A stretch of 64,000 nt of DNA, taken from positions 1 to 64,000 of the forward strand of contig VGCZ01000022.1 in assembly GCA_016869975.1 (NCBI GenBank). The letters run 5' to 3'. The number at the start of each line of letters is the position of its first letter. Position 1 is the stretch's first letter. A model generated the notes under the pieces. The model was not told the DNA's origin. It did no database searches and was given only the letters and a program-made list of their open reading frames with translations. Positions 12,464 through 38,049 of the stretch are shown here, in pieces. The stretch comes from Alphaproteobacteria bacterium (GTDB lineage: Bacteria; Pseudomonadota; Alphaproteobacteria; Reyranellales; Reyranellaceae). Position numbers and translations under genes: made by a program.

Positions 12464-13033
12464 CTATTCGGTGTTGGCGTTCCTGCCGATCGCGTAGTGC
12501 TTGGCGCCGATAAGCGAGCCATCGGGTCCGAAATGCTTGACCGTGCCTTCGAACTGGTCGAGCACGCCGGAGGGGTAACGAAAGGCCGGACGCCCCGGCA
12601 TGCTGACGACGTTGTACTGCTTATAGGTCGACACCAAGAGCGTGCAGGCGGTCGTCGCCGCGATCGCCCGACACATCTCATCGCCGACCTCGCCGGCGGC
12701 GACGCGGCAGGCGTGGATCCAGATCTTTCCGACCTTTTCGCGCCACGGCTCGAAGAGGTGGGAGTGCTGCGCAAAGAACCCCTGGCCCATCTGCAGGAAG
12801 CCCGGCGCACCATGGCAGTGGATGATCACATTGGTGATCTTGCCGCCCGGCGCTCGGCCGGCGGCCGTGACCACCCGCTGTATGATGCTGTTGCGTGTCG
12901 CCTCGGGCCGGACGATTTCCGTCGCCCATTGCGGGAAGATCGACTGGGTACGGGTGTCGTTGAGCGATAGGGCAGGCTGGGGAATTCTGTACACGGCCGC
13001 CGTCCAAGTGAGCAGTCGCTCATAAACTAGCAC
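12464..13033 (-). CDS. small DUF4347/caspase-fold-like protein
   Basis: 189 residues from a GTG at 13033; the frame is open further upstream but there it only shadows the neighbouring gene. The core reads NVIIHCHGAPGFLQMGQ and, 30 residues on, GKIWIHACRVAAGEVGD. That resembles the HG...GC pattern of DUF4347 domains (IVSHGSPGSLQLG and LLYGCNVAAGEQG), with H74 and C109 as a candidate His-Cys dyad. DUF4347 is related to caspase-like and CHAT peptidase folds and normally sits at the N-terminus of very large surface proteins. No signal peptide is evident. Function unknown; the start is uncertain as no good ribosome site is seen. Confidence 0.55.
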   Translation of the reverse strand: MLVYERLLTWTAAVYRIPQPALSLNDTRTQSIFPQWATEIVRPEATRNSIIQRVVTAAGRAPGGKITNVIIHCHGAPGFLQMGQGFFAQHSHLFEPWREKVGKIWIHACRVAAGEVGDEMCRAIAATTACTLLVSTYKQYNVVSMPGRPAFRYPSGVLDQFEGTVKHFGPDGSLIGAKHYAIGRNANTE

Positions 13034-26282: not shown

Positions 26283-26984
26283 ATGACCGCGATCCAGCCG
26301 CATATCCTGCTCGTCGAGGACGAGAAATCGCTCGTCGAGCTGATGCGCTACAACCTCGAGCGGTCGGGCTACCGCGTGACTGTGGCGACCAATGGCGAGG
26401 AGGCGCTGACCTCGGTCGCCGACGATCGACCCGACCTCGTGCTGCTCGACTGGATGCTGCCGCTGATGTCGGGCCTGGAGGTCTGCCGCCAGCTCCGGCG
26501 CCAGCCGACCACCTCGAACATCCCGATCATCATGCTGACGGCGCGCGGCGAGGAGGGTGACCGCATCCGGGGGCTGGACGCCGGCGCCGACGACTACGTC
26601 TCCAAGCCGTTCTCGCCCAGCGAGCTGGTGGCGCGCATCCGCGCGGTCTTGCGCCGCATTCGCCCGGCCTTGGCCGACGAGGTGCTGGAGTACGCCGATA
26701 TCGCCATGGACCTGGTGCAGCACCGCGTGATGCGCGGCGGCAAGCCGGTGCATCTGGGCCCCACCGAGTTCCGCCTGCTACGCCACCTGATGGAGCACCC
26801 CGGCCGGGTCTTCTCGCGCGAGCAGCTGCTCGACGCGGTGTGGGGCCGCGACGTCTATGTCGAGGCGCGCACCGTCGATGTCCATATCCGTCGCCTGCGG
26901 GTGGCGTTGAACGGCGAGCGCCACGCCGACGTCATCCGCACCGTGCGGGCGGCGGGCTACGCCCTCGACGTCCAGCAGGCCTGA
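26283..26984 (+). CDS. phoB: phosphate regulon response regulator PhoB
   Basis: 233 residues, OmpR/PhoB family. The receiver domain has the acidic pair in LLVEDEKS, the phospho-acceptor D56 in LVLLDWMLPL and the switch Lys in DDYVSKPFSPSEL. The winged-helix effector domain includes LGPTEFRLLRHLMEHPGRVF and ARTVDVHIRRLRVAL. It activates phosphate-starvation genes at Pho boxes. It is the last gene of the cluster, 13 bases after phoU. Confidence 0.97.
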   Translation: MTAIQPHILLVEDEKSLVELMRYNLERSGYRVTVATNGEEALTSVADDRPDLVLLDWMLPLMSGLEVCRQLRRQPTTSNIPIIMLTARGEEGDRIRGLDAGADDYVSKPFSPSELVARIRAVLRRIRPALADEVLEYADIAMDLVQHRVMRGGKPVHLGPTEFRLLRHLMEHPGRVFSREQLLDAVWGRDVYVEARTVDVHIRRLRVALNGERHADVIRTVRAAGYALDVQQA

Positions 26985-34607: not shown

Positions 34608-35804
34608 TCAGCCGGCCGATCGCAAGGCGCCGGCCGCCCGCAGCGCCGCTATGTCGGCCTCGGATACGCCCGCCTCGCGCAGCACGGCGAGCGAATCCTC
34701 GCCCAGCAGCGGCGCGCCCCTGAGGTGCTCGCTGGGCGTCGCCGAAAAGGCGATCGGCGGCGCGAGGGTGGTGATCTCGCCCTCGCTGTGATGCTCGACG
34801 GTGCGAAACATGCCACGCGCGGCGAGGTGCGGGTCCTCGAACAGCTGCTCCAGCGACTTCACCGGCATGCAGGGGATCTCGCGCGCCTGCAGCGCCTCGA
34901 TCCAGTCCGCCACGCTGCGCGCGGGCGTCAGCCGCTCGACCATGGCGTAGATTTCGGCGATACGCCGCGAGCGCTGGCTCATGGTGGCGTAGCGCGGGTC
35001 GTCCATCACCTGGGGCTCGCCGGCGACCTCGAAGAAGGCGCGCCAGTGCCGATCGGTATAGGGCAGGATCGCCAGGTAGCCGTCCTTGGCGCGATAGGGC
35101 TTGCGCGTGGGCGTCGTCAGCCGGCTGTAGCCCAAGGTGCCGTGCGCGGCGAAGGAGCGCTCCCAGAGGTGCTCCAGCATCAGCCAGTTCACCATGGTCT
35201 CGAACATCGGCACGTCGACCTTCTGGCCCTTGCCCGTGCGCACCTTGTGCATCAGGGCGATCAGGATGGCGTAGGCCAGTGTCAGGCCGACGGTCTTGTC
35301 GGCCAGCACGGTCGGCGCATAGCGCGGCGGGCCGTCCTTGCCGCCCATCAGCGCGGCGACGCCCGAGACCGCCTGGATGGCGTCGTCATAGGCCGGCAAA
35401 TGCCCGTAGGGGCCGTCTTCGTGATAGCCGTAGGCGCCGACGTAGCAGATCTCCGGATTGACCCGGCGCACCGCTTCGTAGGACAGGCCCAACCGGCCCA
35501 TCGCCGCCGGCCGGATCGAATAGACCAGCGCGTCGGCGCCCTCGATCACCTTCATGAGCGCCGCGAGCGCCTCGGGGCGCTTCAGGTCGAGGCACAGCGA
35601 GCGCTTGTTGCGGTTCACGAACAGGTGGTGCGGGGCCATTCCGGGATTGGTCTTGGACGGCCCGACATGGCGCGTGGTGTCGCCTTCCGGCGACTCGACT
35701 TTGATCACCTCGGCGCCCTGCTCGGCCAGCATCATGGTGGCGAAGGGCCCCAGCGCGACGACCGTCATGTCGACGATCTTCAATCCTGCCAACGCACCGG
35801 CCAT
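34608..35804 (-). CDS. CaiB/BaiF (family III) CoA transferase
   Basis: 398 residues from the ATG at 35804, which has GGGGGAG 6 bases upstream and starts MAGALAGLKIVDMT; 25 further upstream codons are not conserved. Motifs are GPFATMMLAEQGAEVIKVE, RNKRSLCLDLKRPE and GHLPAYDDAIQAVSGVAAL, the Asp of YDD matching the catalytic aspartate of family III enzymes. The family moves CoA between organic acids. An acyl-CoA synthetase lies two genes away on the other strand, suggesting acid catabolism. The upstream region has an operator-like element at 35887-35927. Confidence 0.93.
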   Translation of the reverse strand: MAGALAGLKIVDMTVVALGPFATMMLAEQGAEVIKVESPEGDTTRHVGPSKTNPGMAPHHLFVNRNKRSLCLDLKRPEALAALMKVIEGADALVYSIRPAAMGRLGLSYEAVRRVNPEICYVGAYGYHEDGPYGHLPAYDDAIQAVSGVAALMGGKDGPPRYAPTVLADKTVGLTLAYAILIALMHKVRTGKGQKVDVPMFETMVNWLMLEHLWERSFAAHGTLGYSRLTTPTRKPYRAKDGYLAILPYTDRHWRAFFEVAGEPQVMDDPRYATMSQRSRRIAEIYAMVERLTPARSVADWIEALQAREIPCMPVKSLEQLFEDPHLAARGMFRTVEHHSEGEITTLAPPIAFSATPSEHLRGAPLLGEDSLAVLREAGVSEADIAALRAAGALRSAG

Positions 35805-35886
35805 CGCACGCTCCCCCAGCCCGTCCCCTTGAGCGGCCGGCATCATGGCGATGGCCCCCAGCCCCGTCGAGGCAACCAAGTCAGTT

Positions 35887-35927
35887 GCGAGCGCTCATTT
35901 TTATTCTAGAATAGAAGCGACCGCTCA
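35887..35927. promoter_or_regulatory. symmetric operator-like element (direct repeats around a palindrome)
   Basis: GCGAGCGCTCA (35887-35897) and GCGACCGCTCA (35917-35927) are 11-base direct repeats with one mismatch, 30 bases apart. The perfect palindrome TATTCTAGAATA (35902-35913) lies exactly between them. The element separates the divergent CoA transferase and DUF3859 lipoprotein genes. It looks like a regulator binding site (TetR- or MarR-type), but no such regulator is in the window. Confidence 0.5.
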
Positions 35928-35950
35928 ATCATATAGCCAGGGAGAGACTC

Positions 35951-36463
35951 ATGCGGTGGCTAGGCCTGATCCTGTTGGCCAGCCTGGCGGCCTGCGCGGG
36001 CAATACGACGGGCGGCAAGGGCGTGCGCGACATCGAGATCGTCGAGGCGGGCATCTATCCGGTCCCTGCCGGCGCACGCTCGACGCCAGTCGGCCTCTGC
36101 GAATCGCTGAGCGAGCCCGCCCGCGGTGACGTCAATATTTCCGCTCAGGAGCGCACCACCCGCATCCCGGCGCGGTTGGGCACCCTGTTCGGCGTGACCT
36201 TCCGGCCGGTCGGCACCGTGCCCGACGGCGTGACCAGTTTCCGCGTGCTGTGGCGCGCGCCCGATCCGGGCATTCCTGACGCCGTCACCGGCAAGCCCCG
36301 GCGCGACGACGGCTGCGCCTATGCCTACCGGATGGGCGTCACCACCTTCCACGGCTTCCGCTTCGAGCGCCCGGCCGAGCTGATCCCCGGCGCCTGGGCG
36401 CTGGAGATCTGGCATGGCGACCGCAAGCTGCTGGCCTACGGCTTCCAGGTTTACAAGCCATAG
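35951..36463 (+). CDS. DUF3859 lipoprotein
   Basis: 170 residues. A lipoprotein signal ends in the lipobox LAAC (Cys at about residue 15). The mature domain has TTRIPARLGTLFGVTFRP, PDPGIPDAVTGKPRRDDG and AELIPGAWALEIWHGDRKLL, the DUF3859 pattern. The function is unknown; it is presumably anchored in the envelope. A GGGAGAG ribosome site lies upstream. It is divergent from the CoA transferase and 44 bases before the acyl-CoA synthetase. Confidence 0.8.
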   Translation: MRWLGLILLASLAACAGNTTGGKGVRDIEIVEAGIYPVPAGARSTPVGLCESLSEPARGDVNISAQERTTRIPARLGTLFGVTFRPVGTVPDGVTSFRVLWRAPDPGIPDAVTGKPRRDDGCAYAYRMGVTTFHGFRFERPAELIPGAWALEIWHGDRKLLAYGFQVYKP

Positions 36464-36507: not shown

Positions 36508-38049
36508 ATGGACGTGCGCACGCAGATGCGCAGCGCGGCCGGGTACTACGCCCAGCGTGAGGCGGTGGTCATGGGCGCGCGGCGGCTGAGCTTTGCGCAG
36601 GCCTGGGAGCGCGGCGTGCGCATGGCCAACGGCCTGCTGTCGCTCGGGCTGAAGCCGCAGGATCGCGTCGCGGTGCTCGAGGACAATCGGCTGGAATCGT
36701 CCGACATCTTCCTCGGCGCCGGCATCGCCAATCTGGTGCGCGTGCCGCTCTATCCCCGCAACGCGCCCGATGCCCATGTCCACATGATGGGCCACACGAA
36801 TTGCCGCGCGCTGGTGGTGGACGAGAAATACCTGCACGAGATCGAGCCGATCCGCGCGCAGCTGCCCGAGCTTCAGCGCATCGTCGTGCGCGACGCCGCG
36901 TACGAAACCTGGCTCGCCGCCCAATCGCCGATCGATCCTGATCCGCCGATCGAGGACACCGACAACTACATCATCCGCCACACCGGCGGCACGACCGGAC
37001 GGCCCAAGGGCGTGGCCTACTCTCATCGCGCCTGGCTCGCCGCCGGCCGCGACTGGTTCTACCTCTTCCCGCCGGTGGCGCCGGGCGATGCCTGCCTGCA
37101 TCTCGGTCCGATCAGCCACGCCTCGGGCTATCAGTTCCTGCCGGTCTGGCTCGGCGGCGGCCGCAACATCGTGGTCGACCGTTTCGATCCGACCGAGGTG
37201 CTCGACCTGATGGAACGCGAGCGCATCGCCTATCTGTTCATGGTGCCGACCATGCTCAACGCGATGAACCGCCTGCCCGGTCTCGAGGGCCGCGACTTCT
37301 CGTATCTCAAATGCATGCTGGTGGCCGCCGCACCGATCGCCGACGACACGGCGCTCACGGCGAAGAAGTATTTCGGCCACGCGATGTATCAGGGCTACGG
37401 CCAGACCGAGGTTCTGCCACTCGCGATGATGGGACCCCGGCAATGGTTCGCCACTGACGTGCCGGGCTCGACGCCGCTGCGCGCCTGCGGCCTGCCGCTG
37501 CCCTTCATCCAGGTGCAGATCTGGGACGAGGACAACAAGAAGGTGCCGCCGGGCACGGTGGGCGAGATCGTCGGCAAGGCCGATGGCCAGATGACCGGCT
37601 TCTGGAACAACCCGGAGGCGACGGCCGAGCGCATGGTCGACGGCTGGGTGAAGACCGGCGATGTCGGCTATCTCGACGCCAACGGTTATCTCTATATGGT
37701 CGATCGCGCCGGCGACATGATCGTCTCGGGCGGCTTCAACATCTACCCCGCCGAGCTCGAGAACACGCTGTGCGACCACCCCGACGTGATCGAGGCGGCG
37801 GTGTTCGGCATTCCGCACGAACGCTGGGGCGAGACGCCCTGCGCGGTGTGCACGGTCAAGCCGGACGCGACCGTGAGCGAGGCCGAGCTGATCGCGCTGT
37901 GCGAGGCGAAGCTCGGCAACTACAAGCGGCCGAGCAAGGTCGTGCTGCGTGCCGAGCCGCTGCCCAAGACGCCGGTCGGCAAGATCAAGCGAAAGGAGCT
38001 GCGCGAGCCGTTCTGGGCCGGCCATACGCGGCGCGTGGCGGGGGCGTGA
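36508..38049 (+). CDS. AMP-dependent acyl-CoA synthetase/ligase
   Basis: 513 residues, ANL superfamily. The phosphate loop RHTGGTTGRPKGVAYSH, the YQGYGQTEVLPLAM adenine motif, KTGDVGYLDANGYLYMVDR and GGFNIYPAELE hinge region, and the C-terminal catalytic lysine in PKTPVGKIKRKEL are all present. It activates a carboxylic acid as its acyl-adenylate and then CoA thioester; the chain type is not clear from sequence. The start ATG has GGGAGGGA upstream. Confidence 0.93.
   Translation: MDVRTQMRSAAGYYAQREAVVMGARRLSFAQAWERGVRMANGLLSLGLKPQDRVAVLEDNRLESSDIFLGAGIANLVRVPLYPRNAPDAHVHMMGHTNCRALVVDEKYLHEIEPIRAQLPELQRIVVRDAAYETWLAAQSPIDPDPPIEDTDNYIIRHTGGTTGRPKGVAYSHRAWLAAGRDWFYLFPPVAPGDACLHLGPISHASGYQFLPVWLGGGRNIVVDRFDPTEVLDLMERERIAYLFMVPTMLNAMNRLPGLEGRDFSYLKCMLVAAAPIADDTALTAKKYFGHAMYQGYGQTEVLPLAMMGPRQWFATDVPGSTPLRACGLPLPFIQVQIWDEDNKKVPPGTVGEIVGKADGQMTGFWNNPEATAERMVDGWVKTGDVGYLDANGYLYMVDRAGDMIVSGGFNIYPAELENTLCDHPDVIEAAVFGIPHERWGETPCAVCTVKPDATVSEAELIALCEAKLGNYKRPSKVVLRAEPLPKTPVGKIKRKELREPFWAGHTRRVAGA

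Follow-up and report, generated by a model that had tools for sequence, protein, structure and literature searches.

Two 11-bp direct repeats within a 64-kb window (the whole stretch of alphaproteobacterial DNA that was analysed) are conserved in place in relatives of the same genus, overlap a sigma70-type promoter, and have a counterpart at a second conserved promoter on another contig, C69. We take the repeats, with reasonable but far from complete confidence, to be tandem operators of one putative repressor that also acts on the C69 promoter, and we leave the palindrome between them out of this reading. The element is real and modest, and its mechanism an ordinary one, tandem operators on a promoter as part of a small regulon. 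From a repeat that had caught the eye it yields a regulon that can be tested, in a family that has had little study, with a short consensus, two promoters and a suggested metabolite class, and it gives the DUF3859 lipoprotein its first regulatory context. The most striking feature of the locus, its palindrome, is probably a product of chance, and the plainer repeats are the signal.

Table 1. Element, neighbouring genes and candidate lone sites (window coordinates unless a contig is named)
Feature	Position	Strand	Remarks
-35-like hexamer TTGCGA	35885-35890	+	Promoter scan; all 6 columns unchanged across the three genomes
Repeat copy 1, GCGAGCGCTCA	35887-35897	+	Upstream operator-like site; overlaps -35 and spacer
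12-bp palindrome, TATTCTAGAATA	35902-35913	strandless	Between the repeats; contains the -10
-10-like hexamer TAGAAT	35907-35912	+	TAGGAT in G001 and G003; 5 of 6 columns invariant
Repeat copy 2, GCGACCGCTCA	35917-35927	+	Operator-like; at the expected (predicted) transcription start
DUF3859 lipoprotein-like gene	35951-36463	+	PF12975; most likely target
Acyl-CoA ligase gene (AMP-binding)	36508-38049	+	Downstream of the lipoprotein gene
Class III CoA-transferase gene	34608-35804	-	PF02515; divergent neighbour
Candidate lone site ATGAGCGACTGCTCACTT	13006-13023	-	Score 21.6
Gene behind the 13006 site	12464-12997	-	Start uncertain; DUF4347 match just above cut-off
Lone site on source contig C2	~15714 (L262:2815-2832)	-	Score 21.7; flanked by trpD and a 229-aa gene, uncharacterised

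Repeats, palindrome and promoter

The original prediction, made from the sequence, described two 11-mer repeats and a palindrome centred between them to the base, and we found the repeats and the 12-bp palindrome at the places claimed. The copies lie 30 bp apart, start to start. The centring is inexact by half a base, with 4 bases to the left of the palindrome and 3 to its right (pair centre 35907, palindrome centre 35907.5), and a scan of the window that accepted exact centring only returned no case, while a half-base tolerance recovered the present one. That such a geometry is unlikely to arise by chance held up locally, with no pair around a centred palindrome of at least 12 bp when the 146-bp intergenic region was dinucleotide-shuffled 5000 times, but became weak once the whole 64 kb had been looked through, since at least one such arrangement arose in 6 of 60 shuffles of the window. 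These shuffles understate chance because the real window is richer in repeat pairs than its shuffles (220 pairs versus a shuffle mean of 97). With up to one mismatch, the palindrome has one match in the window and none in 100 window shuffles, and its exact form has a single occurrence in the genome. The geometry by itself is suggestive, not decisive; the decisive evidence is comparative, because the repeats are conserved, the palindrome is not, and a second promoter carries such a pair again.

Two genomes of the same genus, G001 (94% identity) and G003 (86% identity), have a close ortholog of the lipoprotein gene, and these two and the source genome, three genomes of modest divergence, make up the footprint alignment; a fourth genus genome, G002, is 67% complete and is without a close ortholog. 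The repeats and their 30-bp period are kept in three of the four genus genomes examined. Copy 1 is identical in G001 and G003 (11 of 11 columns invariant), and copy 2 is identical in G001 and carries one change in G003 (10 of 11 columns invariant), lying 23 nt before the ATG in the window and 24 nt before it in both relatives. Across the block 35885-35931, whose limits were picked with the alignment already in view, 42 of 47 columns do not vary among the three genomes, compared to 12 of 24 in those flanks that are plainly non-coding (one-sided Fisher p=0.0004) and 73 of 99 in all remaining intergenic columns (p=0.02).

The promoter, TTGCGA-N16-TAGAAT (35885-35912, + strand, matching at 9 of 12 positions), is sigma70-like and directed at the lipoprotein gene. 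It is the only promoter-like match in the 251 bp at 35750-36000, where 0.1 would be expected, and it falls exactly over the sites; the -35 and -10 hexamers, at a spacing within the 16-18 nt of the sigma70 type, differ by one change across the three genomes. Transcription would start at about 35919, at copy 2. The palindrome reads TATTCTAGGATA and TGTTTTAGGATA in the relatives, with 9 of 12 columns invariant and a -10-like TAGRAT retained, and we rejected it as a separate element on finding it broken in both G001 and G003. It is probably a by-product of the -10 region, its symmetry most likely due to chance. The prediction of a regulator site is thereby narrowed, the repeats standing as a conserved two-site target that recurs elsewhere and the palindrome falling away as a binding element.

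The near-palindromic repeats can also pair with each other in RNA, as would be expected of an RNA-level or mobile-element feature such as a leader hairpin, a small RNA or a target duplication. However, fold z-scores for the two strands were -0.70 and +0.93, the interval 35700-36100 gave no Rfam match to E = 1, the repeats are conserved in place together with the promoter, and no third exact 11-mer was found on the window's contig. An origin of this kind is the least probable of those we considered.

Neighbouring genes and the likely target

The lipoprotein gene is the constant and most likely target, because the element is associated with this gene and not with the CoA transferase or the ligase. 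It adjoins the lipoprotein gene in all three genus genomes that have a close ortholog. Beyond the genus the gene is rare, with matches in 18 of 101 genomes (E 0.001), mostly at 27-37% identity. The ortholog in G004, a genome of another genus, has a weak site 23 nt before the ATG, with a score of 14.4 by a matrix built jointly from both promoters; this is the best position there for both single-promoter matrices.

Only in the source genome does the lipoprotein gene stand directly before the ligase gene, which may there be co-transcribed with it and is followed by a beta-lactamase-fold gene on the same, right side of the element. Another gene separates the two in G003, and in G001 they lie about 6.7 kb apart, with an opposite-strand LysR gene in the interval. 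At 8 of 15 ligase loci (L181-L188), the CoA transferase and the ligase are adjacent and divergent with no lipoprotein gene between them, and no repeats at up to one mismatch were found upstream of these eight ligase genes. Among all 15 ligase loci the repeats occur in the source genome only, with none within 1.5 kb in G001 and G003; one locus, L178, ends at a contig edge, is anchored inside the gene and counts little. Of the predicted control over the lipoprotein and acyl-CoA synthetase genes, the lipoprotein half is supported, with this gene as the constant neighbour of the element, while the ligase, separated from it in G001 and G003, is not a general target.

Control of the CoA transferase, which had also been proposed, finds no such support. 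The sole promoter-like match faces the lipoprotein gene, and the pair lies upstream in 1 of 80 CoA-transferase loci, L120, which belongs to the same genus (5 of the 80 had less than 400 nt of upstream sequence, 2 practically none); L111 and L145 carry one single site each, with one mismatch. An alternative close to the original wording is a composite element, in which a regulator bound to the palindrome would be aided by helper repeats and would control both divergent genes. Its geometry, present in one genome, is reproduced by 0 of 5000 regional shuffles, and the palindrome is rare in the window, but the half-base offset, the breaks in both relatives and the single same-genus locus among the 80 speak against it. 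Largely refuted by the alignment, this arrangement is very improbable.

For the CoA transferase itself, the ATG at 35804 is the preferred start, given what appears to be a ribosome site, GGGGGAG. Upstream of this ATG (35805-35879, - strand) the frame continues without a stop or a gap in each of the three genus genomes, and a genus-specific N-terminal extension of the protein is possible. Elsewhere, on source contig C17 (L034) and in G001 (L033), a DUF3859 paralog is again divergent to a class III CoA transferase, the latter about 30% identical to that of the window; the upstream sequence is different there. The DUF3859 and class III CoA-transferase families may be functionally linked.

The second promoter

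A single-site search of G001 and G003 with the site consensus, allowing one mismatch, led to the second promoter. Besides the known sites, it returned two zero-mismatch single sites, one inside a coding frame on contig C3 of G003 and the other on contig C22 of G001, in a non-coding gap after a terminator-like hairpin. A second copy, GTGAGTGCTCA, lies 33 bp on from the C22 site, outside the search (chance of a copy within 40 nt about 0.15-0.35%). The gene behind this pair encodes a 113-aa orphan protein, which had no Pfam match in G001 either, with close orthologs on source contig C69, G003 contig C6 and G002 contig C64, and both sites, as variants with a period of 33-34 bp, are present at the promoters of all four genus genomes. 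The same site is thus found at a conserved promoter that is non-homologous to the lipoprotein promoter, in the source genome, G001, G003 and G002; in G004, this promoter has site 2 only. The original prediction would have lapsed if the element were neither conserved nor repeated elsewhere, and it stands unrefuted, with the repeats kept in relatives and a second pair found. Its spacing of near three helical turns holds loosely, the period being 30 bp in the window and 33-34 bp here.

At the second promoter, a TTGAC box lies 102-104 nt and the start of site 2 59-61 nt before the start codon, and the promoter scanner gave no sigma70 match at its threshold (scanned in G001). Site 1 of the source C69 promoter has CTCG as its last four bases and departs from the search consensus at two positions. 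In all five genomes (L226, L227, L228, L229, L233), GTGGATAA stands 7-8 nt upstream of the TTGAC box, as TGTGGATAA in the four genus genomes and as GGTGGATAA in G004; we presume this motif to be DnaA-box-like.

On C69, the 113-aa gene is followed on the same strand by genes for an SDR, a 4HBT-type thioesterase, pobA and pcaHG, with the 4-hydroxybenzoate 3-monooxygenase and the protocatechuate 3,4-dioxygenase beta and alpha subunits matching above curated cut-offs. These genes would be transcribed together. The 113-aa protein encoded on C69 had no Pfam or NCBIfam match. Its family (L230-L255) has 5-8 matches per genome in G006, G009, G011 and G013, of a related genus, and 2-3 matches per genome within its own genus.

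We then compared the two promoters using a lipoprotein matrix of the six lipoprotein-promoter sites, a second matrix of the nine second-promoter sites, and a joint matrix of all 15, and found that each single-promoter matrix recovers sites of the other promoter, imperfectly. With the lipoprotein matrix, the two C69 sites took the top two ranks among all positions of the 11.8-kb source stretch, and the two G001 sites did so in the 2.7-kb second-promoter stretch of that genome; at the second promoter of G003, site 2 came first and site 1 fourth, and in G002 site 2 came first and site 1 third. The second-promoter matrix gave the pair the top two ranks in the G003 lipoprotein locus (3.5 kb) and ranked it first and third in G001, and in the 64-kb window it put the lone site at 13006 first, copy 1 third and copy 2 (on its own strand) outside the top four. 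The 15-site matrix has a background of about 0.45-1 matches per Mb at scores of at least 20 and about 0.15-0.35 per Mb at scores of at least 21.5.

When the pair pattern was broadened to take in the second promoter, it matched four places in 76 genomes of the order, all within the genus and in promoter regions, compared to none in the reversed control, one of the four having informed the pattern. Searched with up to three mismatches at fixed spacing, the pair gave 82 matches in the 76 order genomes versus 78 in the reversed control, and only the three exact ones stand out. The exact pair was found in the source genome only among 385 genomes of the class, a sample without G001 and G003. Single sites numbered 46 versus 35 reversed-control matches in G001 and 50 versus 27 in G003, and showed no enrichment in the source genome (41 versus 39); the genome-wide excess that a regulon might produce was absent. 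Five exact 11-mers elsewhere in the genome were set aside as lying inside open frames (the longest 342-646 codons), as was a site on contig C1 (L002, score 25.3, perfect dyad) inside a 635-aa frame. The 28 other one-mismatch sites with an examined locus fall in coding-like frames in 25 cases and outside them in 3, and 11 further one-mismatch sites stand outside this count.

These data bear on the simplest alternative, a plain sigma70 promoter whose -35, -10 and start are conserved for basal transcription, with repeats that resemble each other by chance. The near-control number of single sites in the source genome fits it, as do a footprint backed by only three genomes of modest divergence and the fact that dinucleotide shuffling of the 146-bp intergenic region gave a comparable repeat pair 219 times in 5000. 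However, copy 2 is kept though it lies outside both hexamers, and four genus genomes have a pair of the same type at a promoter unrelated to this one, with matrices that find one promoter from the other, if imperfectly. We regard a plain promoter as unlikely, while giving it some weight.

A putative repressor and its possible regulon

The site consensus, about NGAGYGANYRCTCA, forms a loose TGAGYG-N2-CRCTCA dyad that we take to be TetR-like in pattern. The symmetry is weak at most sites: of the six pairs of the dyad, 3-4 match at the window sites and 3-6 at the second promoter, and G002 site 1 is the only promoter site where all six do. Under the reading we favour, a single sequence-specific factor, most likely a repressor, would bind both repeats as operators on a sigma70-type promoter, with operator 1 overlapping the -35 box and spacer and operator 2 covering the expected start point past the -10. 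A dimer bound at either site, or at both and then perhaps cooperatively, would block RNA polymerase, and the promoter of the DUF3859 lipoprotein gene (35951, + strand) would open once a ligand had released the dimer. The same factor would act on the C69 promoter. Its signal may be an aromatic metabolite or one of acyl-CoA type, as suggested by the CoA-ligase, thioesterase and hydroxybenzoate/protocatechuate genes found alongside the sites.

It is the positions of the sites alone that lead us to prefer repression to activation. A direct-repeat-binding activator, for instance an OmpR/PhoB-type response regulator, would suit sites whose direct-repeat arrangement is retained while their dyad symmetry is weak, and a response-regulator gene encoding a Trans_reg_C domain lies in the window about 9 kb away (26283-26984, + strand). 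However, copy 2, downstream of the -10, is in an unusual place for an activator, and a period of 30-34 departs from that of OmpR/PhoB-type direct repeats, which is roughly 10-11. Activation through such sites seems to us decidedly unlikely. The response-regulator gene adjoins genes for TRAP-transporter binding proteins (DctP).

TetR genes commonly, though not obligatorily, have an operator near their own start. Among the 25 TetR loci of the genome, no site scored at least 14, and the regulator was not found among them; the best scores were 13.7 and 11.4, the latter about 95 bp before one TetR start. No regulator was recognised in the source C69 stretch, where the first 70 residues of the frames and three further frames were scanned. 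LysR genes were seen near one locus per genome, about 3 kb from the second promoter in G003 and, as another LysR gene, following the lipoprotein gene in G001.

The centres of tetO1 and tetO2 in Tn10 lie about 30 bp apart. One repressor is described as binding both operators independently and as acting on tetA and on its own gene (PMC11686294), and the tet genes are divergent across a short gap of 81 bp (PMC3511530). Here too, two similar sites overlap a promoter, although their dyads are weak where tetO2 is a strong 19-bp dyad, and whereas the Tn10 repressor gene is the divergent neighbour, the genes on either side here encode a CoA transferase and a DUF3859 protein, neither a regulator. TetR-family regulators of fatty-acid or branched-chain catabolism, of the FadP and LiuQ types, are described as having targets in CoA-linked catabolism and operators common to several promoters (PMC5343134). 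The present system may resemble these in its putative CoA-linked targets and shared operators; FadP and LiuQ belong to the TetR family, whereas 0 of the 25 TetR loci here carry the site. Known regulators of hydroxybenzoate and protocatechuate operons include PobR, PcaQ, PcaU and the MarR-type FerC and CouR. The second promoter, ahead of pobA and pcaHG, invites comparison with these, but none of them was recognised among the scanned frames of the C69 stretch. Literature searches returned nothing on DUF3859, the motif in unrelated work only, and nothing for pcaHG or pobA with TetR; for regulons or operators in Reyranella, none of the matches listed contained the name Reyranella.

We tentatively propose a small genus regulon, in which a putative ligand-responsive repressor would tie the DUF3859/ligase locus to pobA-pcaHG via paired operators placed to bracket the polymerase, and in which the start-site operator would be the older and the -35 operator a later gain. 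We place the start-site operator earlier because it is kept alone at both G004 promoters, weakly at the lipoprotein gene. This fuller scheme strikes us as plausible, if a little short of probable.

Two lone sites, that at 13006 and that near trpD on contig C2, may be further regulon members. Within the window only the two repeats outscore the 13006 site, the next score below it being 9.6; it lies just after a promoter-like TTGCGT-N16-TAGTTT, judged by eye; as it falls within an open frame, it could be coding. The gene behind it had no above-chance match in the syntenic G003 stretch, where both flanking genes are present, and this absence is why the site has no footprint. On source contig C7, at about 40682 (L203/L257), a MarR-like gene and a divergent gene whose start resembles a signal peptide, both judged so by eye, have a one-mismatch site between them; TATCGAGTCGATA-type dyads beside this site may be the MarR operator.
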